Source of the DNA: a virus
Reading direction: 5' to 3' (one strand)
IMG/VR virus record: IMGVR_UViG_3300035015_000011
Location: 1-53,987 of that record
DNA length: 53,987 bases
Shown here: positions 1 to 53,987 of the stretch, in pieces
Position numbering within the stretch: position 1 is the stretch's first letter
Layout of the letters: the number at the start of each line of letters is the position of its first letter
Program-made: the position numbers and the translations under genes
The notes under the pieces: model-generated
Told to the model about the DNA's origin: nothing
The model's input: only the letters and a program-made list of their open reading frames with translations
The model's database searches: none

Positions 1-1086
1 CTAGTGGCCCTCTGACGACGTTCTCGTCTTCTTCCCCTTGAAGGCCTGGATCACCTTCGCCTCGTTCTCGACGTGGCGCGTATAGTGCGCGCCCATGCGC
101 TCGGACTTGTCGCCGAGCGCTGCTGCGACTTGGCCAGCGTCAGCGCCGGATCTCCTGAGGTCTGCGGCGTAGGTCACGCGAAGGCCGTGCAGCGTCGTCT
201 TGGCGCCTATCAATCCATCCTTCTCCAGCTTGCGAAGGAAGTGGCTGACCTCGGTCTGCATCTGGACTTCATTGTCCCAGGGCTGGCCGCTCGCCTTCGT
301 GGCGATGTGCAGCGCTGACCTGGTGCAGGCCTTCAGATAGTCTTGCAGCTCGATCGCTGCCGGCACCCAGAGGATCTCGCCGTTCTTGCGGGTGACGGTG
401 CGGAAGCATTTCCCATAGGATGCGTCGTCCTGATATTCGCGCCAGGTTAGCGTTGCGATCGTCTGGCCCCGGAATCCGGCGTAGCGGGCGAGATAGAGGA
501 TCCGCCTGATATGGTCAGGGGCGGCGTCCATTGCGGCCTTGACCTCGTCGGCCATCCATTCCCGGTTGGCCTGTTTCGAGGCTTTGTGAGCCTTGTCGAG
601 GCCCTTGGCCGGATTCATCGAAATCTTGCCGCGGCGTGCGGCCTGGCTGAACATCGAGGAAAGTGCTGCGACCATGTTGTCGGCGAAGCGCGGCCACTTC
701 TCCCGGGCGCAGCGATCGCGGATGTCGTAAATGTCGGCCTGGGTGATTTCGTTGACCGGATAGTCGAACTCCGGCTTGAGGTATTTGAAGGCGGACGAAT
801 AGCTCTTCTTGGTCGCCTCTGACAGCGTCTGGTATTTCGGGCAGTCGGTCTCGTACCATTGCACGATCGAGCCCAGCGTGCCCTCGGGGTAGATGCGGGT
901 GAGGTCGCGGATGCGGCGGGCGTTATACAGCGCGATCATGTCGGGCATCGCGAGGCGCTTCATCAGCTCGTCGCGCGTGCCGTCGAAGCCGCCGAGCAGC
1001 TTCTCCTTCGTGCCACGGATATAGACGTAGAAGCGGCCGCGCGCGCGGACAATGTTAAGCCCTTCGAGCTTCACCTTCACCACCAT
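1..1086 (-). CDS. int: Tyrosine site-specific integrase of the prophage
   Basis: 361-residue tyrosine recombinase that would integrate and excise the phage. The catalytic set is readable: Arg206 in GFRGQT, a candidate Lys234 in the beta-hairpin, His300-Gly-Leu-Arg303, and the nucleophile Tyr335 in GAHYTRH. Residues about 70-165 look like the SAM-like core-binding domain and the first 60 like an arm-type DNA-binding region. The usual second His/Trp position falls around GDKS and is not a clear match. The stop codon is the first base of the window, so the adjacent attachment site lies just outside. Its start overlaps the upstream excisionase-like gene by 32 bases, so it is the last gene of the leftward early operon. 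Confidence 0.95.
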   Translation of the reverse strand: MVVKVKLEGLNIVRARGRFYVYIRGTKEKLLGGFDGTRDELMKRLAMPDMIALYNARRIRDLTRIYPEGTLGSIVQWYETDCPKYQTLSEATKKSYSSAFKYLKPEFDYPVNEITQADIYDIRDRCAREKWPRFADNMVAALSSMFSQAARRGKISMNPAKGLDKAHKASKQANREWMADEVKAAMDAAPDHIRRILYLARYAGFRGQTIATLTWREYQDDASYGKCFRTVTRKNGEILWVPAAIELQDYLKACTRSALHIATKASGQPWDNEVQMQTEVSHFLRKLEKDGLIGAKTTLHGLRVTYAADLRRSGADAGQVAAALGDKSERMGAHYTRHVENEAKVIQAFKGKKTRTSSEGH

Positions 1087-1321
1087 TCAGTCGATCCCCG
1101 AATTTCCGACGGGGCATGTTATCCTGCTTGTTCGGATCAAGCGAGAGCATCCATTCGTCCAGGCGCTGGCGCAGATACCGCTCGCCGCGGGCGGAATCGG
1201 TGTAGCGCAGCGGCTTCACCGGGCAGACGGCGTCGAAGGTGTCGACGCATATGCCGCAATAGGCGGCGGCCATCTTGCGGTTCATTGCCGCCGGCCAATA
1301 GGGCAGATCGGTCCCGGTCAT
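1055..1321 (-). CDS. Putative excisionase / AlpA-like winged-helix DNA-binding protein
   Basis: 88-residue protein. Residues about 13-58 read as a small winged-helix DNA-binding domain of the excisionase/AlpA type: a helix beginning MNRKMAAAYCGI, followed by a wing around RYTDSARGERY. The start was chosen at the ATG preceded by GGGAGGA, rather than a longer frame without a ribosome site. It overlaps the integrase downstream by 32 bases and the upstream gene by ATGA. The position directly before int is the classic place for a recombination directionality factor. The excisionase role is inferred from size, fold and position. Confidence 0.7.
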   Translation of the reverse strand: MTGTDLPYWPAAMNRKMAAAYCGICVDTFDAVCPVKPLRYTDSARGERYLRQRLDEWMLSLDPNKQDNMPRRKFGDRLNGGEGEARRA

Positions 1322-1554
1322 GCCTTCCTCCCTTGCAGTTGCAGGTTCCAGAGATGGGCCGCCAGGATCGAGGCATCCTGGCAAGCGTTGCCGACGGTGA
1401 TGCGTCCGTTCGCTGTCAGAAAGCTCGCGCCGCATTCGAAGTCCGCACGGGCGTAGTGGGTCACGCCGTGGCGCCAGACGAGGTCAGTCCTCGGCGACTT
1501 GCAGCAAGGGCAGGCTTCGGTGGCAACGATCTTGTCGACGTGAGCGGCGGTCAT
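1318..1554 (-). CDS. Small zinc-ribbon-like protein, possibly related to restriction alleviation protein Lar
   Basis: 78-residue protein starting at an ATG with a strong GGAGGT site. It has a CPCC knuckle near residue 14, a single later Cys in FECGAS, and a C-terminal tail containing AAHLWN. This order (Cys pair, strand, Cys, then a helix ending in a Trp-Asn) resembles the Lar-like zinc-ribbon proteins of phages, but the second Cys pair is incomplete. It overlaps the excisionase-like gene by ATGA. Its ATG lies one base after the stop codon of the out-of-frame C-terminal segment of the gene upstream. An anti-restriction role is only a suggestion. Confidence 0.55.
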   Translation of the reverse strand: MTAAHVDKIVATEACPCCKSPRTDLVWRHGVTHYARADFECGASFLTANGRITVGNACQDASILAAHLWNLQLQGRKA

Positions 1555-1555
1555 T

Positions 1556-1783
1556 TCACCCCACCTCCCTCGGTTGGGGCGATGGGTTTGGAAGCCCCAG
1601 CAGATTAGCGGCATGTTCACGGCTGATCTCGCCGGTCGTCTGAAAATCAAGATGCAGTACATTGCAGAGCAGACCAGTTTCGACCCTGCTTTCGATCAAG
1701 GACAGTGCTTCGGACCATTGGCCACTGGAGAACTCTTCGCTCTCGACCAGATTTTGGTGGGCCTCGCCCCCCCCCCCAGACAT
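1556..1783 (-). pseudogene. Out-of-frame natural C-terminus of the mosaic repeat protein
   Basis: This frame reads 73-75 residues after the G tract, including SGQWSEALSLIESRVETGLL and REHAANLLGLP. That looks like ordinary protein, unlike the Arg/Ser-rich tail of the frame it should continue. Its stop codon is one base before the ATG of the next gene, as expected in this tightly packed operon. I read it as the true end of the 1647-3257 gene, separated by a one-base length change in the homopolymer. Whether that is a sequencing error, a real mutation, phase variation or transcriptional slippage cannot be told from one sequence. Confidence 0.65.
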
Positions 1784-3257
1784 CCACGCGGATTTTCCCT
1801 TCTCGCACTACTGGCGTGTCGCCAACCACATTCGGTTGAGGCGGTGGTGTCAGCGTGGAGAGGCGCTTAGCGAGCGCCGCCATGAAGCGCGCGAACTCTG
1901 GGTCGAGCTGTTCGCGTGACTGCATACGGCACTGAGCGGCAAAGTCTGCCAGCGACCATTCTTCAAACCGCCCGCCATCGATTTCCGGTGCCTCATGTTT
2001 CTCGGGCGCTGGTGTCTCGGCCTCCGAGGTGTCGATGGCATCGACAGCCGAGCGAAGCTCCTCGAAGGCATCGAACGGCACTATCCAGCACTTCTCGCCG
2101 CTACCGTCTTCGAAGCTCGCAAGGTGCCCGTTCCGTTTTTTGTAGGTGTCGAAAGCAGACGCAATTACATCACGAGCGGCTTGGACCAGCCCCCGCACAT
2201 TCGGTTGAGGCGGTGGTGTCAGCGTGGAGAGGCGCTTAGCGAGCGCCGCCATGAAGCGCGCGAACTCTGGGTCGAGCTGTTCGCGTGACTGCATACGGCA
2301 CTGAGCGGCAAAGTCTGCCAGCGACCATTCTTCAAACCGCCCGCCATCGATTTCCGGTGCCTCATGTCGAGAGGGCGGCGGCTCGATGGCTCTATCCCAG
2401 CACTCTGCGCTGCAGACCCAGCGGCCATCCTCAAGCTCGCATTCGGTCCCGCCGTCGCCTTCTACCGTCGAAAGCCCTTTCTTGCCGCACATGCAGCACT
2501 GCGGTGCCACAGGTTTCTCGGCTGCTGGGCTCGACTGAGTTAACTCTGCAAGACGGCCGCCTTTTGCGATGTCCCACCAAGGCAGCCAAGCGAGGGTGTC
2601 AGCGAATTCCGGCGACTGTTCGAGGGCGACTTCGTAAACCTCCTTGAGGTGCTGCAGGTTTCGCGCCTCGTGCTTACTGATTGTTGCAAGCCTGGTCGGC
2701 TTCCCGACTACATGGTCAAATGCCTGCCGGGCTGCGAGGGCAGATCGCTTGAACTCTTCGTGCGCGTTCCAGCCCCCCACAATCGGTTGAGGCGGTGGTG
2801 TCAGCGTGGAGAGGCGCTTAGCGAGCGCCGCCATGAAGCGCGCGAACTCTGGGTCGAGCTGTTCGCGTGACTGCATACGGCACTGAGCGGCAAAGTCTGC
2901 CAGCGACCATTCTTCAAACCGCCCGCCATCGATTTCCGGTGCCTCATGTTTCTCGGGCGCTGGTGTCCGCCCAGGCGGCAGCCCGCAGTGATCACATGCG
3001 ACGGTCTTTCCGCCGTACTTGATCATGGGAAATTCGCACTGGCAGCGCGGCTGCGAGAATGGCACCAAATGTGGTGAGGGCGGTGGGGTGGGCGCCCGGA
3101 GATCAAGGTTTCCAGAAAGCTCTTTGTGAATAGCCTGCGCCGTACGGCGGGTAACTTCGTACCCGACCTCGCGGCCATCTGCGGTCGCTATCAGGAACTC
3201 AAACTGATCCTCGCTGTCATGGAAGCGACTGAGGGACACTCCGATGATTTCTTTCAT
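1647..3257 (-). CDS. Mosaic early protein with three near-identical repeats; C-terminus thrown out of frame by a G11 tract
   Basis: No family recognised. From the ATG at 3257 the frame gives 536 residues. Three copies of one segment (residues about 97-160, 298-354 and 415-477) separate four unrelated modules: an N-terminal module ending in a zinc knuckle, a helical module followed by a CCMCGKKG zinc motif, a helical module around VQAARDVIASAF, and a C-terminal module. Each repeat starts near HEAPEIDGGRFEEW and ends in the proline linker LTPPPQP. An 11-base G run (1767-1777) near residue 495 switches to a poor-looking C-terminus. Removing one G would instead enter the frame ending at 1556. The start overlaps the HNH gene by ATGA. 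Confidence 0.6.
   Translation of the reverse strand: MKEIIGVSLSRFHDSEDQFEFLIATADGREVGYEVTRRTAQAIHKELSGNLDLRAPTPPPSPHLVPFSQPRCQCEFPMIKYGGKTVACDHCGLPPGRTPAPEKHEAPEIDGGRFEEWSLADFAAQCRMQSREQLDPEFARFMAALAKRLSTLTPPPQPIVGGWNAHEEFKRSALAARQAFDHVVGKPTRLATISKHEARNLQHLKEVYEVALEQSPEFADTLAWLPWWDIAKGGRLAELTQSSPAAEKPVAPQCCMCGKKGLSTVEGDGGTECELEDGRWVCSAECWDRAIEPPPSRHEAPEIDGGRFEEWSLADFAAQCRMQSREQLDPEFARFMAALAKRLSTLTPPPQPNVRGLVQAARDVIASAFDTYKKRNGHLASFEDGSGEKCWIVPFDAFEELRSAVDAIDTSEAETPAPEKHEAPEIDGGRFEEWSLADFAAQCRMQSREQLDPEFARFMAALAKRLSTLTPPPQPNVVGDTPVVREGKIRVDVWGGGRGPPKSGRERRVLQWPMVRSTVLDRKQGRNWSALQCTAS
1767..1777 (-). repeat. Eleven-base C/G homopolymer causing a frameshift
   Basis: Eleven consecutive C on the + strand (G on the coding strand). 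With 11 the upstream frame runs into a poor C-terminus; with 10 or 13 it would join the frame that ends at 1556. Confidence 0.9.
1827..2016 (-). repeat. Repeat copy A of the mosaic early gene
   Basis: The core 1827-1998 (172 bp) matches copy B at every base I compared. The extended 190-bp segment to 2016 matches copy C with one difference. Confidence 0.95.
2196..2367 (-). repeat. Repeat copy B of the mosaic early gene
   Basis: 172 bp, same sequence as the core of copy A. It lacks the 18-bp extension shared by copies A and C. The spacing from copy A is 369 bp, a multiple of three, so the copies stay in frame. Confidence 0.95.
2778..2967 (-). repeat. Repeat copy C of the mosaic early gene
   Basis: 190 bp, identical to copy A except one base near the left end (A instead of T at 2782). 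The spacing from copy B is 582 bp, also a multiple of three. Confidence 0.95.
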
Positions 3258-3556
3258 GAGAAAATCTCTCCGTTTCTGATGGTCTTCCAGGTCAACCAGT
3301 CGATCTCGCCGCGGTCGCGGTTGCAGGCAAAGCAAGCAAGCGCAATGTTATCTGGGCGGTTCGTCCCGCCCTCAGCCTTGCGGCGAAGATGCTCGATGGT
3401 TTCGGCGTCTTCAGGAATAGGACCCTCATCGGGATGCTTTTCCCACCGCGTCATTGGGCGCCCGCAGTAGCAGCAGGCTCCGCCCTGTGCCCGACGAAGC
3501 TTGGTTTTCAGGATGCCTCGGACCTTCGGAGACATCCTTGCGAGCCTCTTCGCCAT
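3254..3556 (-). CDS. HNH endonuclease domain protein
   Basis: 100-residue HNH-family protein. The signature is complete: Cys-x2-Cys in CCYCGRP (about residues 28-33), Glu-His in TIEHLRR (about 53-59), GG, then the Asn in RPDNIALAC followed by the second zinc pair in ACFACNRDRG. Such small proteins are metal-dependent DNA nickases or nucleases. Some help packaging when next to the terminase, but here the gene sits between the sliding clamp and the mosaic gene, so a replication or recombination role is more likely. The stop overlaps the next ATG by four bases. The gene begins seven bases after the clamp stop with no obvious ribosome site, suggesting coupling. An internal start at residue 8 is possible. 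Confidence 0.85.
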   Translation of the reverse strand: MAKRLARMSPKVRGILKTKLRRAQGGACCYCGRPMTRWEKHPDEGPIPEDAETIEHLRRKAEGGTNRPDNIALACFACNRDRGEIDWLTWKTIRNGEIFS

Positions 3557-3563
3557 GACGTTT

Positions 3564-4679
3564 TCAAACCCGCATCGGCATCAGCACGACGACGTTTTCC
3601 TTGTGATCTCCGTCGACGCGCAGGATGGCGGGTGAGCCGGCGTCGGTGACTTCCATCAGGAGCGGGCCGTCGGGGAGGGAGCCGATTGCTTCGAGCACGT
3701 ATTTCGCGTTGAAGCCTGTCTCCATCGCGGCGTTGCCGTCATAGGCCAAGGTCTCCTGGGCCGTGCCTGCGTCCGGATTGTTGACCTCAAGCGTGAGGGT
3801 CCCATCTTCGAAGCGGAATCGGGCGGCGCGGCCGCGCTCGCTGGAGATAACCGCGACGCGGTCGACCGCGGCTTTCAGGACCGCGCCGTCGAGCTCGGCC
3901 GTGCCGGTGTGGCTCTGCGGCACGACACGCTGATAATCCGGGAATGTACCGTCGATCAGCTTCGAGGTGATGGTGACCCCGGGCAGGCTGAACCGAACCT
4001 TCTGTGTCGAGGCTTCGACATGCACCTCGGCATCCTTGGCGCTCTTGTCGGACAGCAGCTTCAACAGGATGCCGACCGTCTTCCTGGGCAGGATGATGCC
4101 GGGAAGGTCGCCGGGGTCTGCCGAGACGAAACGCTTGGCGAGGCGGTGGCCATCGGTCGCCACCAGCATCATGCCGCCCTCGACCGGATGCAGGAAGATG
4201 CCGTTCAGGTAGTAGCGCGTCTCCTCGGTCGAGATGGCGAAGGCGACGGCGCCCATGGCCTTGGCGAGGTGTGCTGCGGGGACTGGGAAGCTCGCTGCGA
4301 AGCCGCCGGCCGTGAGGTCCGGGAAGTCGCTCGCGGGTAGGACCTGCAGCGCAAAGGTCGACCGACCCGCCGACAGCTTTACCTGGTTCAGATCCGGCCC
4401 CGCCGCCTTCACCGAAATCTCACATCCATCCGGCAGCTTGCCGACGATCTCGCGGAGCAGCCCGGCTGGCACGGTGAAGGGCTGGAAGCTCTGGTCGATA
4501 TCGGCCTCGAACAGAATGCGACCCTCGACGTCCATGTCGGTCATCCGGACCTCAAGCTCCGTCTTCGAGGCGCGCTCGATCAGCAGGTTCGACAGGATCG
4601 GAATGGTGTTGCGACGCTCGACGATGTCGCCAGACAGGGCGAGGGCTGATTTCAGGGCGGCTTTACTGGCCTTGAACAT
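3564..4679 (-). CDS. dnaN: Phage-encoded DNA polymerase III beta subunit (sliding clamp)
   Basis: 371 residues, full length for a bacterial beta clamp, with the three repeated clamp domains. The N-terminus MFKASKAALKSALAL, the segment ERRNTIPILSNLLI, ATDGHRLAKR in the middle domain, the linker segment GTFPDYQRVVP and the C-terminal MPMRV are all typical. The clamp would tether the host polymerase to phage DNA. The start was set at the ATG preceded by GGAG rather than the longer Ser/Arg-rich extension. The reading overlaps the end of the ASCH gene by 17 bases. Carriage of a complete clamp by a temperate phage of this size is unusual. Confidence 0.92.
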   Translation of the reverse strand: MFKASKAALKSALALSGDIVERRNTIPILSNLLIERASKTELEVRMTDMDVEGRILFEADIDQSFQPFTVPAGLLREIVGKLPDGCEISVKAAGPDLNQVKLSAGRSTFALQVLPASDFPDLTAGGFAASFPVPAAHLAKAMGAVAFAISTEETRYYLNGIFLHPVEGGMMLVATDGHRLAKRFVSADPGDLPGIILPRKTVGILLKLLSDKSAKDAEVHVEASTQKVRFSLPGVTITSKLIDGTFPDYQRVVPQSHTGTAELDGAVLKAAVDRVAVISSERGRAARFRFEDGTLTLEVNNPDAGTAQETLAYDGNAAMETGFNAKYVLEAIGSLPDGPLLMEVTDAGSPAILRVDGDHKENVVVLMPMRV

Positions 4680-5091
4680 GAGAGGTCTCCTGCAGGTGTC
4701 GGCGCCACTCGAAGAATCCGAGTGCGCCCTTGACGGCGATGAATGGGACGGGGCGCGGGTTGGCGAGGACGAAGCCATAGGGACCGAAAAACCACGGGCT
4801 CCCGTGATGCGTGACGCAGTCGACGATATCGACCACCCCCACGATGCCGCCGAGCTTCAGTTCGCTGCGTTCAGGGAAGGCGCGAAGGCGCTCGAAGCCC
4901 GCACCCGACATGCGGTATGTCTCAAGCCCATCGCGCCATTCGTTCAGGGTCATGCCCTTGGACGCATGGATGCAGACGGTCCCGCGCACCTTCGTCGACC
5001 AGCTGCGGTTTTCGACAGGCTTGCCGAAATGCAGGATGCAATGCGCCCAGGGCTGGCGGATCGATAGAGCGAGCTTTGGCAGCACTTCCAT
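4663..5091 (-). CDS. ASCH-domain protein
   Basis: 142-residue ASCH/PUA-like protein. The N-terminal block LALSIRQPWAHCI, then GKPVENRSW and GTVCIHASKG, is the ASCH signature (about residues 6-50). The later GGIVGVVDIVDC completes the beta-barrel. ASCH domains bind RNA or modified nucleosides and occur in many phage early regions, but the role is not established. The ATG follows the stop codon of the gene upstream by one base, and its end overlaps the clamp start. Confidence 0.85.
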   Translation of the reverse strand: MEVLPKLALSIRQPWAHCILHFGKPVENRSWSTKVRGTVCIHASKGMTLNEWRDGLETYRMSGAGFERLRAFPERSELKLGGIVGVVDIVDCVTHHGSPWFFGPYGFVLANPRPVPFIAVKGALGFFEWRRHLQETSHVQGQ

Positions 5092-5092
5092 G

Positions 5093-5350
5093 TCAGCGAC
5101 CTTTCAGGCGCGCGGCGGCGATCTGGCCGGCCTCGGTGAGGTTGAGATTGGGGATCTGCCCACGGACCAGGCCGAGGCGGCGGAGGCGCGTGATCGTGAG
5201 GTCGGCTGCCTTCACCGGGCCGAGCATGACGCCGGCCATCGTGGTGTACTGGCGCCGGTAGTCACGGATGGCGAGCAGGGCCCTGCGCTCGCTGACATTC
5301 AGCGACTTCTTTGGGTCGGTGACGGCAGGATTGTCAGCGAGGCAGGTCAT
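5093..5350 (-). CDS. Small winged-helix-like hypothetical protein
   Basis: 85 residues. After a short variable start, residues about 20-80 predict three helices and a wing (ERRALLAIRDYRRQ, then ADLTITRLRRLGLV, then LTEAGQIAAARL), like a MarR- or PadR-type DNA-binding module. No family assigned. The start is preceded by GGGAG. It lies between the DUF2303 gene (14 bases upstream) and the ASCH gene (one base downstream), inside the early operon. Confidence 0.7.
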   Translation of the reverse strand: MTCLADNPAVTDPKKSLNVSERRALLAIRDYRRQYTTMAGVMLGPVKAADLTITRLRRLGLVRGQIPNLNLTEAGQIAAARLKGR

Positions 5351-5364
5351 GGCGATCGCTCCCG

Positions 5365-6309
5365 TCAGGCCGACATTTCCGGCTTGCCACGGAAGTGCGG
5401 CAGGTCGGTCGCTTCGGCGGCGCGTGCGAGGTCAGCCTCGATCTGGGTCGTGATGTAGACATCCGGACGGAAGATCTTGAACATCCACTTCACCTGGCCG
5501 CTGTTCACGCGGTAGCGCAGGCGAACGGGCATGCGGACCGGCTCGCCCATGAAAAAGGGCGGGATGGCGAGGATGAAGAGGCCGGGGACGGAGAGCTTGT
5601 TGCCGGCGGCGTCACGATGCTCCTCCTCGAAGAGCAGCTCGCCTTCGCCGGACTGAAGCGTGGTCGAGTTCTTGACGCGGCTTTCAACATTCACCTGCAG
5701 GCCGCGCGACAGCATGACCATCTTGTTCGGGCTGGCGACCGTCATGTTGAAGGTCTTCTCCAGTTCGTCGACCTCGTCGGCGGTCGGTGCTGCCAGTTCC
5801 GGAAGGTGTTCCTCGATCCACTCGGCAAAGGCCTTCTGGTCCATCTGCTGGCCGTCGAGCTTGATCCAGGCATCCCACTCATCGGACAGGGGGAATTCGT
5901 AGTGGACGCGGTGCTTGCCATTGTCGGGAGGGCCTGCCGGATCCTTGGTGTGATAGTCGACGACGGTCGTCAAAGACGGCTGACGCCAGTTGGTATCCGC
6001 GAAGATGACGCTCTCGACCGTCTTGTGGCGGTTGGTCAGCGCGATGAAGCTGTCGAGCGTGAAGACCTTGGCGATGCCGCTCTTGCGGGCGGGCCGGTCG
6101 CGATATTCTTCGAACAGGGGCTTGAGGCTTTTCGCCTGGCCTGACTTCCGGTCGATCAGAATGGGGAAGGTGCCGTCGATACCCAGCGCCTTGATCGTCG
6201 CGGGTTCGACGCTGGTGCCGGCGTCGTCGGCCATGCGGCGGATCGCCTCGATGTCGAGCGGGCCCGAGGCGGCGATCAGTTCGCCTGTGACTTCTGTGGT
6301 GGTGGTCAT
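5365..6309 (-). CDS. DUF2303 (YfdQ-like) phage protein
   Basis: 314 residues. The segments VFTLDSFIALTNRHKT and ESVIFADTNW, followed by LTTVVDYH and HRVHYEFPLSDEW, match the DUF2303 family, whose E. coli member YfdQ sits in the CPS-53 prophage. The function is unknown. In this window it lies between the ssb gene and the clamp gene, which suggests DNA metabolism. The ATG has an AGAGGA site. In CPS-53 yfdQ is next to yfdR, an HD-domain nucleotidase; the counterpart here is about 1.8 kb upstream in the same operon. Confidence 0.88.
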   Translation of the reverse strand: MTTTTEVTGELIAASGPLDIEAIRRMADDAGTSVEPATIKALGIDGTFPILIDRKSGQAKSLKPLFEEYRDRPARKSGIAKVFTLDSFIALTNRHKTVESVIFADTNWRQPSLTTVVDYHTKDPAGPPDNGKHRVHYEFPLSDEWDAWIKLDGQQMDQKAFAEWIEEHLPELAAPTADEVDELEKTFNMTVASPNKMVMLSRGLQVNVESRVKNSTTLQSGEGELLFEEEHRDAAGNKLSVPGLFILAIPPFFMGEPVRMPVRLRYRVNSGQVKWMFKIFRPDVYITTQIEADLARAAEATDLPHFRGKPEMSA

Positions 6310-6334
6310 GCTGCTTTCCTCTTGGGGCTGGTGG

Positions 6335-6676
6335 TTACTGCTGACGGCCTTCGATCACGCGCGGACCGCCGAACATGTCGGTCTGTGCGGGATGTTCGGT
6401 GGAGAGCGCGCCTTCCTCGGTGGTCCAGAAGACGTCCAGGCGACGCGGGACCTTGGGCAGGGTCGATGCGATATCGTTGCTGATCGTGACCATGCCGTTC
6501 TCGACCGAGAGCTTCATTTTCAGGGTCAGCGATCCGGAGAACTTCTTCTTCGGATTGTCTTCCGACAGTTCGTGCAGGCGGGTGACGACCTTGGCGATCT
6601 CTCCGCTCAAGTCGACCTTCAGTTCGCCCTGTTCGAGAACGCCGATCAGGGTGTCGGCATCACGGATGAATTTCAT
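6335..6676 (-). CDS. Conserved early phage hypothetical protein
   Basis: 113 residues from the ATG preceded by AAGGAG; a start nine codons earlier has no site. It begins MKFIRDADTLIGVLEQGEL and has a basic middle (NPKKKFSGSLTLKMKLSVENG) that looks like a beta-sheet. The C-terminus is Pro/Gly rich and ends in QQ. Nothing identifies the function. The position between ssb and the DUF2303 gene suggests a replication or recombination accessory protein. Confidence 0.7.
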   Translation of the reverse strand: MKFIRDADTLIGVLEQGELKVDLSGEIAKVVTRLHELSEDNPKKKFSGSLTLKMKLSVENGMVTISNDIASTLPKVPRRLDVFWTTEEGALSTEHPAQTDMFGGPRVIEGRQQ

Positions 6677-6721
6677 GGTGTGGCTCCTTTCTTTGGTCTT
6701 CACGCTTGGCTCCAGACGGGG

Positions 6722-6737
6722 CGCGGGATGTCCCGCG
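6722..6737 (-). terminator. Hairpin between ssb and the next early gene
   Basis: Inverted repeat CGCGGGA-TG-TCCCGCG in the 105-bp gap after ssb. There is no T run, so it may attenuate transcription or protect the transcript end rather than terminate fully. Confidence 0.35.
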
Positions 6738-6781
6738 ACGGCCTACCGGCCTGTATGGGTGCCCGCCGCACCACCTCCTCG

Positions 6782-7270
6782 CTAAAAGGGGATGTCGTCG
6801 TCGAGGTCGCGGGAGAAGCTGCCGGTGGACTGGCCGCGCTGGGTGGACTGGCCGGTCTCGCGGGTGCGTTCCTGGCCGTAGTCGTCAGGACTGCCGGCCG
6901 CAGGCGGACGATTGCCGGAGGGCGAGCCGAGCATCACGAGCTGGCAGTTGAAGCCCTGCAGGATGATTTCGGTCGACCAGCGGTCGTTGCCGCTCTGATC
7001 CTGCCACTTGCGCGTGGCGAGCTGGCCTTGGATGAAGACGGACATTCCCTTCTTGAGGTACTGCTCGGCGACCTTGGCGAGGCCCTCGGTGAAGATGACG
7101 ACGGAGTGCCATTCGGTGCGCTCCTTCTTCTCGCCTGTGTTCCTGTCGCGCCAGCTTTCAGACGTGGCGATGCGCAGGTTCGCGATCGGGCTGCCGTCCT
7201 GCTTGCGCCGGATCTCGGGATCGGCGCCGAGATTGCCGATCAGCTGCACCTGGTTCAGATAGCCGGACAT
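6782..7270 (-). CDS. ssb: Single-stranded DNA-binding protein
   Basis: 162 residues. The OB fold begins [20 protein letters not shown] and continues with FRI-like strands, [16 protein letters not shown] and [14 protein letters not shown]. After a disordered Gly/Gln/Ser linker it ends with the acidic tip DLDDDIPF that recruits replication and repair partners. It coats phage single-stranded DNA during replication. The ATG shares one base with the stop codon of the MazG-like gene (TGATG), indicating coupling. A long in-frame upstream extension is Arg/Pro-rich and was rejected. Confidence 0.96.
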
Positions 7271-7602
7271 CAGGCTTCCTCTCGTTGGGGTGAGGTGGCG
7301 CGCTGAATCATGGCTTGCCATTCGCGGAAGCCGGTCATCTTGCGATCCATGCGGGCGTTGTGGGTTTCGACGTCGAGATCGAGCAGCTCGAACAGCCACG
7401 AGATCGCGGCGTCGATGTCCGCCAGTTCCTCGGCGAGGCGTCCGATATTCGGCTGGCCGGTTTTCGGATCTCGGGCTGCGAGGCCTTGGATCAGGCAGCG
7501 CGCCAGGATCTGGGATGCCTCTCCGCATTCTTCGGCGGCCTTGCCGAGCGCCTGGTGCGTGACCGGATCAGGCTCCGGCAGCCAGAGCGTGATTTCAGCC
7601 AT
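7270..7602 (-). CDS. MazG-like nucleotide pyrophosphohydrolase
   Basis: 110 residues, all helical. The paired acidic motifs of the MazG/dUTPase-like all-alpha fold are visible: [11 protein letters not shown] (about residues 21-31) and [15 protein letters not shown] (about 57-71). Members hydrolyse NTPs or dNTPs to monophosphates, and phage forms adjust the nucleotide pool or the (p)ppGpp response. The ATG at 7602 has an AGGAG site; a GTG two codons earlier is possible. It overlaps both neighbours by a few bases. Confidence 0.82.
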
Positions 7603-7780
7603 GGTCACCGCTCCTGTCGCGCTTCACCTTGTCGATGATGCCGGCGTGACGAGCCTTGGCCTGCTCGCGGGCGTCGTTGGGGTCGCTCGCGCGAACGCTC
7701 AGGATCTCGCCGTCCTCGAAATGGACGCGGAAGGTTATGAGCGGAGCGTCCGCTTCGGGCGTGCGATCAGGCCTGGACAT
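7595..7780 (-). CDS. Small hypothetical early protein
   Basis: 61 residues with a central beta segment LITFRVHFEDGEILSV and a basic C-terminal helix. The start has a GAGGAGG site, and it overlaps the genes on both sides by 14 and 8 bases. The family is not recognised. The sequence pattern resembles short host-takeover or accessory proteins found in phage early operons. Confidence 0.65.
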   Translation of the reverse strand: MSRPDRTPEADAPLITFRVHFEDGEILSVRASDPNDAREQAKARHAGIIDKVKRDRSGDHG

Positions 7781-8117
7781 GGCGCGCCTCCTCGGCGGTG
7801 GCGCGCGGCGTCAGATTGCCGATCAGAGCCAGCAGGGCGCTGGCTAGGCGCAGTTCGATGCCGGGGCTGGTCAGCACACGCGCATCGCCTTCGATGACGG
7901 CGACGGCCAAAGCCTCCGCGCCATCAAGATCAAGCGGGCCGGCCAGAAGCTCACCCGTCGGGCCCGCAAGCACGACGGCACCAGCACCATAGGCCAGCGT
8001 GCGCGGGCTGCCGTCCTTGGCAACACCGTCGGTGACAGTGTCGCCCGCCAGCGTCTGACGCAGGTTTCTTCCGTTGGCGAAAGTCTTGATAGGGCCTGAG
8101 GTCAGGATCTCGGTCAT
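7767..8117 (-). CDS. Hypothetical early phage protein
   Basis: 116 residues beginning MTEILTSGPIKTFANG, with AAGGAG upstream. The middle is rich in Ala, Leu and Gly (AYGAGAVVLAGPTGEL), followed by a helix RLASALLALIGNL that is amphipathic rather than clearly membrane-spanning. No family recognised. It overlaps the HD-like gene upstream by ATGA and the 61-residue gene downstream by 14 bases. Confidence 0.65.
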   Translation of the reverse strand: MTEILTSGPIKTFANGRNLRQTLAGDTVTDGVAKDGSPRTLAYGAGAVVLAGPTGELLAGPLDLDGAEALAVAVIEGDARVLTSPGIELRLASALLALIGNLTPRATAEEARHVQA

Positions 8118-8842
8118 CGGGTCTTCTCCTTTGCTGCAGGACCTGGCCGGTTGGCCGGGGCGAAGGCGCTGTAGTCGCGCTCCATCACGCCGGACGAGGC
8201 GACGCGTTCGCGGCCGATCAGCCGTTCCAGCAATTCGAGCCAGGCGAACTCGGCCTTGGCGGGCATCCATGGCTTGATGGTGCCGGCGATCGGCGGGCGG
8301 GTGAGACCGCGACGGAACCCCGGCCATTTCGCCGCCTCTTCGCCCAGCAGCTCGCGCGCCTCGGTGGCGGTGAGGCGATCGCCCATGCCGTTGATGACGG
8401 CGCTCCACGACCGCTTCCACGCCGTGGGCGCGGGCAGGCCTGCCGCCTCGTAGACAGCCTCGTCCCAGCCTGCGCGCATGTCGGCAATGGTTTCGAGGAA
8501 GCGCGTGGCCTCCTCGATGCCGTAGCGGGAGCCGAGCGTTACCTCGACGAGCTCGATGCTTGGCTGAGACAGATCGCCCAGGAAAGCGACATTGGCCGTG
8601 CGCAGCAGGAAGAGAGCCGCGATCATCTCGGGCGCGCCTTCGCGCAGGAGGGCGTCAGCGCCATGCACCGCATGCTGCGCAAAGGAATATGTGCCGGCGA
8701 AGGGAAGCCCATTGAAGCGCGGGATGCGCGACAGCTGCCCGGCCATGACGCGAAAGTTCACCTCGTCGACGACCGGGCGCGCAAGATCTAGGCCCGTGCC
8801 ATTGGCGCGAAAGGCAAAGACGGACGTGGCCAGCGGCTTCAT
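8114..8842 (-). CDS. Degenerate HD-domain (YfdR-like) protein lacking the HD dyad
   Basis: 242 residues. The N-terminal half follows the YfdR/YfbR-type HD fold: RIPRFNGLPF, then YSFAQHAVHGADALL (first His kept), then ALFLLRTANVAFLGDLSQP, which aligns with the usual LLHDAxEAYLGD block. At that place the metal-binding His-Asp is Arg-Thr and the following Glu is Val, although GD is kept. The protein is therefore unlikely to be an active 5'-nucleotidase, and may bind nucleotides or act structurally. It contains a C-terminal extension of about 100 residues. Preceded by GAGAGGTG; overlaps the upstream membrane gene by ATGA. Confidence 0.72.
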   Translation of the reverse strand: MKPLATSVFAFRANGTGLDLARPVVDEVNFRVMAGQLSRIPRFNGLPFAGTYSFAQHAVHGADALLREGAPEMIAALFLLRTANVAFLGDLSQPSIELVEVTLGSRYGIEEATRFLETIADMRAGWDEAVYEAAGLPAPTAWKRSWSAVINGMGDRLTATEARELLGEEAAKWPGFRRGLTRPPIAGTIKPWMPAKAEFAWLELLERLIGRERVASSGVMERDYSAFAPANRPGPAAKEKTR

Positions 8843-47535: not shown

Positions 47536-47759
47536 ACAAGATCGCTCTCATTCTGGCAGTTGTCCCATCGATTGCGCTCGCAGATCTGCCGCCTGACATC
47601 GATGATCGTCCGGCAGAACCGCCGGCCCTGTCCCAGGTGGCGGTGCCCTGTCTTCGCGAGAAGGACGAGCGGGGCTATGTCGTGACATGGGAGATCCGCA
47701 ACACGGTGACGGGCGAAAGAAAGAGTGTGGGAAGTCAAGAAGTCAGGCAGATATGCTAA
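47532..47759 (+). CDS. Small secreted protein after the spanins
   Basis: 75 residues. Signal peptide MNKIALILAVVPSIALA, then a Pro/Asp-rich section and VVTWEIRNTVTGERKSVGSQ, with two cysteines (PCLREK and RQIC) that could pair. Overlaps the previous stop by four bases and the acyltransferase start by seven. Function unknown; periplasmic. Confidence 0.62.
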   Translation: MNKIALILAVVPSIALADLPPDIDDRPAEPPALSQVAVPCLREKDERGYVVTWEIRNTVTGERKSVGSQEVRQIC

Positions 47760-49894
47760 CGCATGCAGGTGGCATCAGCTTGGTGGATTGCGGGAGGAGA
47801 CAGTTTCCGGTAGTGACCCACACAGCTACCCTCGACCAGGGTGCGCAGTTGCTTGACGACGGGGATTCCAGGGGCACTTCTTTGGCGACTTCAGCCTATC
47901 GGCCGGAAATTGATGGCCTACGCGCTATAGCGGTCATCTCGGTCGTCATCTACCATGCTGAACTGAGCCTGTTTGGATATAGTTTCCTGCCCGGCGGTTT
48001 TCTGGGCGTTGATGTTTTCTTTGTAATATCGGGCTACCTGATCGGCAGGATCGTCATCGGCGACGTGTCTGCCGGACGGTTCAGCTTCAGGGACTTTTAC
48101 GAGCGACGGGTTCGGCGGATAGCTCCCGCGTTGTTGTTGGTCATCGGGGCGACAATCCCGTTTGCGTGGTCACTGCTGACGATCGAACAGTTTCGAAGTT
48201 TCGGCTTGAGCATCATCTCATCGCTCACCTTTGTTTCCAACTTCCAGTTCTGGCTGGAGGATGGGTATGCATCGGAGGCCAGTTCGCTCAAGCCTCTGCT
48301 TCATACCTGGAGCCTGGCAATCGAAGAGCAGTTCTACCTCTTCTTCCCTGCCGCCGTGCTCCTGGCTTTCGCTCTCGGTCGCAGAGTGCTTACTGCGGCG
48401 CTGCTGATTGCGCTCGGCCTCTCGATCCTTGTTGCGGAATATCTGACTTATCGAGCGCCATCCGCATCTTTCTATCTTCTGCCAAGCCGTCTGTGGGAGC
48501 TTCTCGCGGGGACTGTGCTCGCATGGCTGGAGATCCGGGGTGTGCGCCGCGTCGGAGGACTTTCTGCCCGGCTCCTGATGATCGCAGCCCTGGCCGTCCT
48601 TGTCGCGTATGTCTGCTTTCCGCTGATAACGCTTGACCGGCATCCGGGATTTGAAACCGTGCCCGTCGTGATCGCCGTCATGGCCATGATCTGGGCAGAC
48701 GGGAAGGGCGGCCGGGCGTACGGGCTGCTCTCTGCTCGGCCTGTTGTTGGGTTGGGGTTGATTTCCTATTCGTTCTATCTCTGGCATCAGCCGGTGTTTG
48801 CTCTCGCGCGAAACGCAAATGTCGACGAATTGTCGTCGTTTCTGAAAATCCTGCTGGTATTTCTATCCGGGGCTCTGGCATGGGCCAGCTGGAAGTTTGT
48901 GGAGACACCCTTCAGGAGCAAGGCAAAGGTACCAAGCCGGGTCCTCTGGTCGGCTTCCGGCTGCGGTCTTGGGCTGATGATCGTCTGCGGGGCCTATTTC
49001 GCCAAGGATGGCCTTCCAATGCGGTATCCTGAATCCGTCCGCTACCAGCCTGTCCAAGAGTGGAAGATCCTCAAGCAGGGTGGACAGCCGTGCCACACCG
49101 AACTTGCGAGTTTTTCCTGTCAGTTCGATCTTTCTGGAGCGGGACGCCCGTGGATGCTCGTCGGTGACAGCCATGCAAGCGTCTTGGGGCCTGCTCTCCT
49201 CGATGGCCTGAAGCAAAAGGCCAGCCGCCTGACGACGTGGACCTGGGGTGGCTGCCCGGTCATCTTCGATGTCGATTATGCGGTCTACAATTATGAAGGC
49301 GAACAGTGCGCCGCGCGCAACATCGAGGTCAGAAAGGCATTGGAAGCGGCGCCGCCCAGTGTTGTCGTCTATGCGGCCCGTATGCCTCTTTGGCTGTCAG
49401 CGGAAAGATTCAACAACGAAGAAGGCGGTGTCGAGGCCGGAACAGCTTTGAAGCTTGCCGTCAAAAACTCGGACGGGGCGACTGTGCCACAGGCCGTGAC
49501 GGAGACGCTTCAATCCATCATAGAGATGGGCCACGAGTTGATTGTGGTCTATCCTGTTCCTGAGGTTGGATGGAGCGTGCCGCGCGCGCTCAACCGTCTC
49601 ACCCCTAAAACTCCGAAATTGGCAGAGGAATGGCTGGCTCGCCAAGGCGTGACCACCTCGCTGGAGGTTTTCCGGCGCCGTAGTGCCGTGGCGTATGACG
49701 CATATGACGCGATCGGTGCCTTGCCGAACGTTCACCGGGTCTACCCGGAGCATGTTTTTTGCAGCGAGGTTTCCATGCGCTGTAAAACGCACGACGTCCG
49801 GTCTGTCTGGTACTCCGATGATGACCACCTTTCACGAGCTGGCGCAGACAAGGTCGTTTCCCAAATTTTTCGTGTGATTTCGAATTCGCTCTAG
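47753..49894 (+). CDS. OafA/YrhL-type O-antigen acyltransferase with SGNH domain
   Basis: 713 residues from the ATG at 47753; a GTG at 47813 with GGGAGGAG upstream is an alternative. The membrane acyltransferase-3 domain begins YRPEIDGLRAIAVISVVIYH and continues with GGFLGVDVFFVISGYLIGR and LKPLLHTWSLAIEEQFYLFF; about ten membrane spans. The C-terminal SGNH hydrolase-like domain has GDSHAS (about residue 470) and a final DDDHLSRAG (about 690). It transfers acetyl or other acyl groups to surface polysaccharide, altering serotype and phage receptors, so lysogenic conversion is likely. Confidence 0.92.
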   Translation: MLTHAGGISLVDCGRRQFPVVTHTATLDQGAQLLDDGDSRGTSLATSAYRPEIDGLRAIAVISVVIYHAELSLFGYSFLPGGFLGVDVFFVISGYLIGRIVIGDVSAGRFSFRDFYERRVRRIAPALLLVIGATIPFAWSLLTIEQFRSFGLSIISSLTFVSNFQFWLEDGYASEASSLKPLLHTWSLAIEEQFYLFFPAAVLLAFALGRRVLTAALLIALGLSILVAEYLTYRAPSASFYLLPSRLWELLAGTVLAWLEIRGVRRVGGLSARLLMIAALAVLVAYVCFPLITLDRHPGFETVPVVIAVMAMIWADGKGGRAYGLLSARPVVGLGLISYSFYLWHQPVFALARNANVDELSSFLKILLVFLSGALAWASWKFVETPFRSKAKVPSRVLWSASGCGLGLMIVCGAYFAKDGLPMRYPESVRYQPVQEWKILKQGGQPCHTELASFSCQFDLSGAGRPWMLVGDSHASVLGPALLDGLKQKASRLTTWTWGGCPVIFDVDYAVYNYEGEQCAARNIEVRKALEAAPPSVVVYAARMPLWLSAERFNNEEGGVEAGTALKLAVKNSDGATVPQAVTETLQSIIEMGHELIVVYPVPEVGWSVPRALNRLTPKTPKLAEEWLARQGVTTSLEVFRRRSAVAYDAYDAIGALPNVHRVYPEHVFCSEVSMRCKTHDVRSVWYSDDDHLSRAGADKVVSQIFRVISNSL

Positions 49895-51742: not shown

Positions 51743-51828
51743 GCGGACGTGGCGAAACTGGTAGACGCAAGAGACTTAAAATCTCTCGGCCTCAGGTCAT
51801 GCGGGTTCGATCCCCGCCGTCCGCACCA
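51743..51828 (+). tRNA. tRNA-Leu (anticodon UAA)
   Basis: Complete 86-base tRNA with encoded CCA. The acceptor stem GCGGACG pairs with CGTCCGC, and the anticodon loop reads CTTAAAA (anticodon TAA). A long variable arm (CGGCCTCAGGTCATG) and the T loop GTTCGATCC follow. All these fit class II leucine tRNA. It may mark the host boundary of the prophage. Confidence 0.97.
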
Positions 51829-52343: not shown

Positions 52344-53987
52344 CTAGCGGCTCAGGTTTACCGATCGCAGGAAGCTCTGCGCCTGCATTGAGCAGAGACG
52401 CTGATCGCCACCGCATCGCGCTTGCACCTTTTCGATCTGCTTCAGCCTCCCGCTGGGTTTCACGCCTGCGAACTTCGTCAGAAGAGAGGCCGCCTCTTCC
52501 ACCGTCACTCGCACTTTGGGCTTGACCGAAGGGCCTTCGAAATTCCTCCACATCAGCAATGGTGTGATGAAATCCGGCTCATCGATCGTTTCCAGCACTC
52601 TCTGAGCGTAGTGCTTCGCAAAGGCGGGATGGTGATCACCATAGGCAAGGATAGTGATTGGATAGGGGGCGGAACGGGCGAAGTTGAGGACGGCTGTCAG
52701 CGCTGTCACGCTGTCGTTCAGCCGGTTCACGTAATCAGCAAGAGCTGGACGGTCGGCCTTCGCAAGGTCGTAGGGACCCGGATACCTTACGGATAGGCGG
52801 CTGAGACCATGCGGGCCATGATTCCAATTGGTGGAGACGAAATAGGCGCGGGGCCCGGTTCTTGGGCTTTTAAGCGCTTCGAGAAGTTTCCTGTAGATCA
52901 GGAGATCGTGCAGTTCTTCCCATTTGTCGGGAAGCTCGAGTGAAGAAAAGTCACGGAAGTCGTCGAACCCGTATCTGCGGAAGGCGGTCCTCACGCCCGA
53001 GAAATCTCCGTTCAGGGAATAGAACACATGATTTTCGTATCCTAGAGATTTGAGGTCGTTGCCGAGGCAGCTTTTGAAATGAGGGGCGACATTGACGTGC
53101 GGCTGAAGGCCTCCCCAGCCGAATAGCTGATGATTGACGGAGCAGAGAAGTTCGAATTCCGTCACGACGCTGTTGCCTCCCCAGGTGTGGACCTGCATCT
53201 GCGTGCTCCAGCTCTCAAGCGGCGATGCTATCACCTTGGCAAGCGGCGGCATGTCAGCGAAAGCCGCTTCGAACTGCGGGTCGAAAACCGATTCGAGATG
53301 GACGATGATAATGTCAGGGCAGTTCCCGCAAGATCTAGCAGCCGGACCGATGGGCGCTGGCGGCCAATTCGCCGCATCGGCCGAGAGAGTGTGGGTCAAG
53401 CTGATACTTGCAGAAAGCCCGGCGACCATAGCCGAGACCCGCAAAGGGCCGCGGTCTGCGGTGACACGAGCGGGCATCTGGCGCCTTATCGCATCCATGT
53501 AGCCGCTCGACATGAAGATCTCAGTTGCTGCGATCGAAAGGCACAAAAGCGTCACCCCGACGAAAGCCCTGATGCGAACCGGAGCGGCAGGACGCTCCAA
53601 ACGCCAGGAAACACCGCTCGACAGCATAAGCACTACAAGGAAGCCGGCCGCGGTGGAGGCCGCCGCCGAATAGGTAAAGAAGATGCCGAATTCGAGGTCC
53701 TGTATGAATTGCAGGATGATGTCGAGATCATGCTGATGAAGATGCTGGCGGAGTTCGGCAAACTTGAAGCGGTCGGCCTGGTCGATCCCGACTAGAAGCC
53801 CGGTGATGACGAGCGATGTGCCAAGGGGGCGCCCAGATATACCGAGCAACGTCAGTTGCCATAAAGACAGAAGACTGAAGACGGAAAGCAACCCATCCCA
53901 TGTGTATTCCCGGCTTGATGCAACTGCATTTACCACGCCGAAGATCAGGCAGGCCACAACCAGACCTGCGAGTTTACTGCGCCCCAT
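52344..53987 (-). CDS. Alkaline-phosphatase-superfamily sulfatase / phosphoglycerol transferase
   Basis: 547 residues; the start codon is the last base of the window, so a longer N-terminus cannot be excluded. Four or five membrane spans in the first 180 residues are followed by a periplasmic catalytic domain: DIIIVHLESVFDPQFEAAFA, HTWGGNSVVTEFELLC (candidate nucleophile region), TNWNHGPHG and ITILAYGDHHPAF (metal-binding His). The pattern matches the LtaS/phosphoglycerol transferase and sulfatase family, which modifies membrane-linked glycans. Probably chromosomal. Confidence 0.85.
   Translation of the reverse strand: MGRSKLAGLVVACLIFGVVNAVASSREYTWDGLLSVFSLLSLWQLTLLGISGRPLGTSLVITGLLVGIDQADRFKFAELRQHLHQHDLDIILQFIQDLEFGIFFTYSAAASTAAGFLVVLMLSSGVSWRLERPAAPVRIRAFVGVTLLCLSIAATEIFMSSGYMDAIRRQMPARVTADRGPLRVSAMVAGLSASISLTHTLSADAANWPPAPIGPAARSCGNCPDIIIVHLESVFDPQFEAAFADMPPLAKVIASPLESWSTQMQVHTWGGNSVVTEFELLCSVNHQLFGWGGLQPHVNVAPHFKSCLGNDLKSLGYENHVFYSLNGDFSGVRTAFRRYGFDDFRDFSSLELPDKWEELHDLLIYRKLLEALKSPRTGPRAYFVSTNWNHGPHGLSRLSVRYPGPYDLAKADRPALADYVNRLNDSVTALTAVLNFARSAPYPITILAYGDHHPAFAKHYAQRVLETIDEPDFITPLLMWRNFEGPSVKPKVRVTVEEAASLLTKFAGVKPSGRLKQIEKVQARCGGDQRLCSMQAQSFLRSVNLSR

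Follow-up and report, generated by a model that had tools for sequence, protein, structure and literature searches.

Ea22 of lambda and Stx phages has been described as a mosaic protein, and DUF551 as a portable domain (PMC10834534). Ead/Ea22-like proteins (PF13935), which favor lysogeny, are encoded by accessory genes that lie between the early recombination/replication genes and xis/int and that are mosaic inside the gene, with short in-frame DNA blocks around unrelated domains (PMC10834534, PMC8614690). Proteins with DUF551 include YfdS, from the yfdQRST cluster of the E. coli prophage CPS-53, and supplying yfdQRS or yfdQRT in extra copies inhibits the initiation of replication in E. coli (PMC4776307). 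On a broader scale, Smug et al. 2023 (PMC10684548) reported fragments common to otherwise unrelated phage proteins, together with evidence of recent exchange, with emphasis on receptor-binding proteins, endolysins and polymerases, the main text being without ea22/ead. Here we compare these systems with a gene found in a 53,987-bp stretch of viral DNA (the window), which derives from a temperate phage, probably one of a Rhizobium-type bacterium.

The gene belongs to a leftward early operon that comprises, from the repressor side, genes for 5'-nucleotidase/YfdR-like, MazG-like, ssb, DUF2303/YfdQ, ASCH-like, dnaN and HNH proteins, followed by the mosaic gene, a small CxxC protein, an AlpA-like regulator and the integrase (Table 1). 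Its position corresponds to the Ead/Ea22 slot (compare ST104 and HK620), and the operon shares YfdQ and YfdR-like genes with the CPS-53 cluster. The same ssb-DUF2303-dnaN block is found in a phage among the relative loci described below (L023/L054), where a different, C-bearing mosaic gene stands directly after dnaN, and the Mesorhizobium plasmid NZ_AP023261 has the DUF2303-dnaN-ssb block. By terminase or primase, Sinorhizobium phage phi2LM21 and Rhizobium phage RR1-A are the nearest isolated phages, and from these and the Mesorhizobium block we infer a Hyphomicrobiales host. Elsewhere in the window, an O-antigen acetylase-like gene (47687-49894; PHROG 6705, E 3e-129) is a likely lysogenic conversion gene. 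A tRNA-Leu (TAA; 51743-51828) near the right end and a membrane phosphotransferase-like gene without a PHROG match (52344-53987) are probably host DNA past the prophage end.

Table 1. Early operon and internal parts of the mosaic gene, in window coordinates (L-numbers are labels of relative loci)
Feature	Position	Strand	Remarks
Tyrosine integrase	1-1086	-	named from sequence
AlpA-like regulator	1088-1321	-	
Small CxxC protein	1318-1554	-	downstream neighbor, one base past mosaic stop
Mosaic early gene	1556-3257	-	~566 aa if G tract is off by one base, otherwise frameshifted near end
Module D	1556-1826	-	linker-like end PSPQPREVG; relatives not found
Homopolymer of 11	1767-1777		inside module D
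R copy 1	1827-1998	-	last in gene
Module C	2013-2195	-	motif RNG..SGEKCWIVPFD
R copy 2	2196-2367	-	identical to copy 1
Module Z, zinc knuckle	2373-2510	-	six cysteines invariant in eight proteins
B1-Z linker	2502-2528		85% identity (27 nt) with linker preceding R copies 1 and 3
Module B1	2523-2774	-	predicted helical; relatives not found
R copy 3	2778-2949	-	first in gene
Module A2, cysteine knuckle	2970-3062	-	CQC..CDHC
A1-A2 linker	about 3060-3092	-	TPPPSPHLV; 27 nt at 93% also in unrelated context in L030
Module A1, N-terminal	3093-3257	-	predicted beta-beta-beta-alpha; best-predicted part of full-length model
HNH endonuclease	3254-3556	-	upstream neighbor; ATGA overlap with mosaic gene
dnaN clamp (DNA polymerase III beta)	3564-4676	-	phage's own copy, near DUF2303 gene
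ASCH-like	4663-5091	-	
DUF2303/YfdQ	5365-6309	-	
ssb	about 6782-7270	-	
MazG-like	7270-7608	-	
5'-nucleotidase/YfdR-like	8114-8842	-	

Read mechanically, the open reading frame (ORF) that starts at 3257 stops at 1647, short of 1556, and a run of 11 C's (G on the coding strand; G11) shifts the frame before most of module D. Codon bias changes frame exactly at this tract, and the other frame ends at a stop that sits one base before the ATG of the next gene. Spacing is tight on both sides of the gene, with an ATGA overlap upstream and TGA-A-ATG downstream. Codon bias and gene spacing both point to an end at 1556, which makes 3257-1556 the most likely extent of the true gene; the tract would then be one base off or vary in length. 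No other C/G run in the window exceeds 7, against 0.06 runs of that size expected under a first-order model, and G11 is either a sequencing error or a slippage site. Coding bias persists throughout the whole stretch between the HNH gene and the downstream gene and is normal in all three copies of the internal repeat. An earlier claim of one reading frame across this interval thus stands for the repeat copies, all of which are in frame, but not for the frame as written, which is not open to 1556.

As the gene lies on the minus strand, its modules run in the order A-R-B-R-C-R-D. The preliminary description had counted four modules joined by three copies of a repeat, R; the R copies are as described, but A and B each consist of two parts, A1 plus the cysteine knuckle A2 and B1 plus the zinc knuckle Z, each pair being connected by a linker in the style of the others. 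With its linkers, the protein reads A1 - TPPPSPHLV - A2 - TPAPEKHEAPE - R - TPPPQPIV - B1 - SPAAEKPVAP - Z - PPPSRHEAPE - R - TPPPQPNV - C - TPAPEKHEAPE - R - TPPPQPNV - D - PSPQPREVG. Relatives of A1, B1 and D were not detected in the module searches, and the full-length fold, predicted without an alignment, is of low confidence for the most part.

Three in-frame copies of the 172-bp unit differing by at most one base had been reported, and this was borne out: copies 1 and 2 are identical and copy 3 is one base off, with spacings of 369 and 582, each divisible by three, as had also been noted. R is the sole direct repeat of at least 40 bp in the window, so a chance origin of the copies is not an issue. 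Similarity around the copies is uneven, in that copies 1 and 3 are alike over 191 nt at 99.5%, the added part lying upstream, and copies 2 and 3 are alike over 182 nt at 98.9%, the added part lying downstream. This pattern would fit, without proving, a recombination at R that brought in a segment with R on it. The spacers, said to share nothing obvious, do have common sequence, since the linker between B1 and Z resembles the linker that precedes two of the R copies.

R is predicted to be an uncatalogued three-helix mini-domain that is encoded with proline-rich linkers; in the model the three helices are compact, with a pLDDT of about 93 in the core and about 60 at the linker ends. Searches with R gave no significant match in Pfam, PHROGs, NCBIfam, PDB or fold libraries, and none of R, C and Z significantly matched a solved structure. 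Whole-protein Pfam matches to DUF2894 and HTH_AraC were rejected as inflated by the triplication, a single R falling below the cut-offs, and PADLOC matches to ZorF3/DUF2894 and Cas6 were rejected on account of the same inflation. Among named phages and plasmids R is absent, and the whole mosaic protein matched nothing there apart from a weak module C match in Pseudanabaena phage Pan3 (ON968454, 28694-28837). Pan3 is named for a cyanobacterium; phages with names of this type also match the window primase, and their host assignment may deserve a check.

Searches with R, C and Z retrieved loci from many phages and a few bacterial genomes. After removal of duplicates, R, C or Z was found in 44 other proteins, and two further R proteins were found afterwards; L006 was left out as an R relative, its weak match lying inside a different kind of protein. 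None of the 44 combines two of the three kinds of module, and no other R protein has a second R copy. R and Z are single in every other bearer, and one protein (L025) has two diverged copies of C. Against these 44, only the window protein has all of R, C and Z, and only it has long, nearly identical internal DNA repeats. The preliminary description had expected homologues to lack a fixed module order, and the modules do occur in differing architectures: R is C-terminal in some proteins and central or close to the N-terminus in others, its neighbors being unrelated (among them a MazG-like part in L019), and Z stands together with DUF551 in L034 (26.2 bits, cut-off 22). The nearest R elsewhere is about 78-79% identical in DNA to that of the window, and the window Z is 87% identical over 131 nt to that of L030, with different flanks. 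Presence in many otherwise unrelated proteins is the pattern described by Smug et al. 2023 (PMC10684548), and the Z of the window gene and L030 also agrees with recent exchange as defined there (identity of at least 70%, the rest unrelated).

Chromosomal copies are rare, at 1 of 397 genomes of the order for R (3 of 63 and 1 of 58 in two genera) and 1 of 397 for Z (1 of 75 in a further sample), rates that are not unbiased because the samples were centered on genomes already known to match; C gave no match in the same 397 genomes, a sample without a positive control for C. No close relative of the window phage, whatever its number of R copies, is among the loci retrieved, and by this comparison the tripled R is peculiar to the window phage.

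Comparisons of related phages show in-frame exchange of modules at linkers, and to this extent the module gain, loss and swapping proposed in the preliminary description are borne out. L021 and L028 have module C and its linker in common (207 nt at 97%), a recent exchange in the sense of PMC10684548, and their N-terminal halves are unrelated. L019 and L027 have blocks of 23-50 nt in common, exact or nearly so, that translate as AASPEPVPATNQAGEV, ATQPATSQE, AATPTPPTLSEDLRE and RAALAQVKAS; the third of these is preceded by R in L019 and by another module in L027, and is followed by C in L027 and by another module in L019. L012 and L013 have R in common, followed by isolated shared blocks, e.g., ATPPTAEEIARRAREE and ALAKPPGETGA, between which the sequence differs, and L031, L032 and L034 have isolated 23-50 nt blocks around different modules.

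Taken across close phage pairs, the in-frame linkers are 23-50 bp long and 97-100% identical in DNA, with unrelated modules around them. The same frame is kept in 68 of 81 isolated blocks within ORFs on both sides, a total that also counts conserved module cores. Exact blocks of at least 20 nt, some of which are long shared stretches rather than linkers, number 12, 9 and 7 in three pairs, compared to 0 in each of 200 shuffles per pair. Proline makes up 17% of selected linker peptides and 6% overall, a figure that is descriptive only because the linkers were picked by eye. A linker repeated within one phage gave one clear case in the five phages tested (L031, 33 nt at 91%); linkers are therefore common between phages more than they are repeated within one.

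The proposal that the 172-bp repeat serves as a general homology patch is thus not upheld, as R is elsewhere single-copy, occurs with many partners and is itself swapped, and the DNA-conserved junctions are the 23-50 bp linkers instead. Work by Susskind and Botstein and on HK620 reportedly placed short conserved boundary or linker sequences at the junctions of exchangeable phage segments; those lie mostly between genes, whereas the present linkers lie inside one reading frame. Two further observations concern the early regions more widely. In L012 and L013 (about 4700-6760) these regions are a patchwork of 30-50 bp identical blocks with unrelated sequence between them, reaching beyond single genes, and a recurrent SLDAAMTLVP-type motif in L005, L017, L018, L064 and L066 marks another portable early-region element.

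The same block analysis was applied, as a control, to ea22/ead of lambda, HK140, HK620, mEpX1, CUS-3, P22, SE1, ST104 and D2. These genes, from nine enteric phages, show many short in-frame blocks joining unrelated domains, e.g., LLDERERNQQYIKRRDQENE and AGIRIKGE, so the behavior of the mosaic gene is of a known kind. However, the window connectors are rich in proline and alanine whereas those of Ea22 are coiled coil, and the window gene has different modules, one of them present three times. The window protein has no match to the Pfam Ead_Ea22 signature at E<=1 and lacks the DUF551 signature (PF04448), and for this reason we do not file it as an Ead/Ea22 member; DUF551 is joined to Z in L034. 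Matches to a query resembling DUF551 were confined to distant ones in coliphages, and it was set aside. The remark that this layout belongs to no named family accordingly needs qualification, since Ea22, Ead and DUF551 proteins behave alike, but none of those examined repeats a domain. Ea22-type mosaic early proteins are known; new here are the modules R, C and Z and the tripled domain. What is added to the survey of Smug et al. 2023 is the role of linkers as junctions at the DNA level and the triplication of a domain inside one gene. With regard to integrons, shufflons and diversity-generating retroelements, the window-wide search for direct repeats gave R only, and no dedicated recombinase apart from the phage integrase was recognized beside the mosaic gene.

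We consider it quite probable that this is an Ea22-type mosaic accessory gene whose modules were exchanged at linkers, in which R was then tripled, and which encodes a flexible string of binding domains. Short-homology recombination at the linkers would exchange modules with the frame kept, for example between a superinfecting phage and a prophage, a route we infer, and the annealing enzymes could be of host or phage origin; no phage annealase was recognized among the early genes scanned, a part of the ORFs. R may have been copied twice more within the gene by unequal recombination, or its copies may be kept alike by gene conversion. Recombination between the resulting three long direct repeats could delete 369, 582 or 951 bp without loss of frame, and none of the correspondingly shortened products was seen.

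Several features of the repeat would also be expected from faulty assembly, in which R served as a bridge between several genes or strain variants that carry it and no single molecule has three copies. The R copies are DNA-identical to a degree far from the nearest R elsewhere, a second copy is absent from every other protein, R is found in a variety of contexts, and the frameshift at the homopolymer suggests that the sequence is imperfect. Since every source gene has R in frame, a false join there would also preserve the frame. Nevertheless, each of the three copies is flanked by different sequence on either side, and the interval as a whole, with its coding bias, fits between its two neighboring genes. 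Most assemblers, when faced with an unresolved 172-bp repeat, break rather than walk through it three times, and we regard such an artefact as unlikely.

The proline-rich linkers between small predicted folds give the protein a beads-on-a-string look that, with normal codon bias in every R copy, would suit a stable multi-domain protein in which R is repeated for avidity, gene conversion keeps the copies alike and R has no special part in module swapping. We give this little credence, as the single-copy state of R elsewhere argues against a conserved need for repetition, and both R and C are among the modules that relatives exchange at linkers. At the other extreme, R could anchor frequent loss and gain of modules in a dedicated diversification device, with G11 as an on/off switch for the last module. 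The in-frame spacing of the copies and the singular G11 tract, with its frame switch, are consistent with such a device, but no variants were seen, the tract length may be a sequencing error, and the integrase is the only dedicated recombinase recognized next to the gene; we find it very improbable.

Under the favored reading, a mosaic gene assembled at linkers with R tripled afterwards, the gene product probably consists of small binding domains strung together flexibly, which would act early on host replication or on the lysis-lysogeny decision. This functional assignment is drawn only from operon position and analogy, and an early role of either kind is plausible given the relatives of YfdQ and YfdR in the operon. 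It is an unlikely extension of this picture that the gene is an active in-frame cassette array, with R-mediated deletion and acquisition of modules at appreciable frequency and G11 slippage toggling the last module; if true, one phage lineage would make many versions of an early protein. These results extend Ea22-type mosaic early proteins from the lambda-like phages of enteric bacteria to alphaproteobacterial phages and name three portable, uncatalogued domains, R, C and Z. The DNA-level pairs show exchange inside genes at short conserved linkers, and the tripled R offers a case in which module turnover inside one gene could be measured directly.
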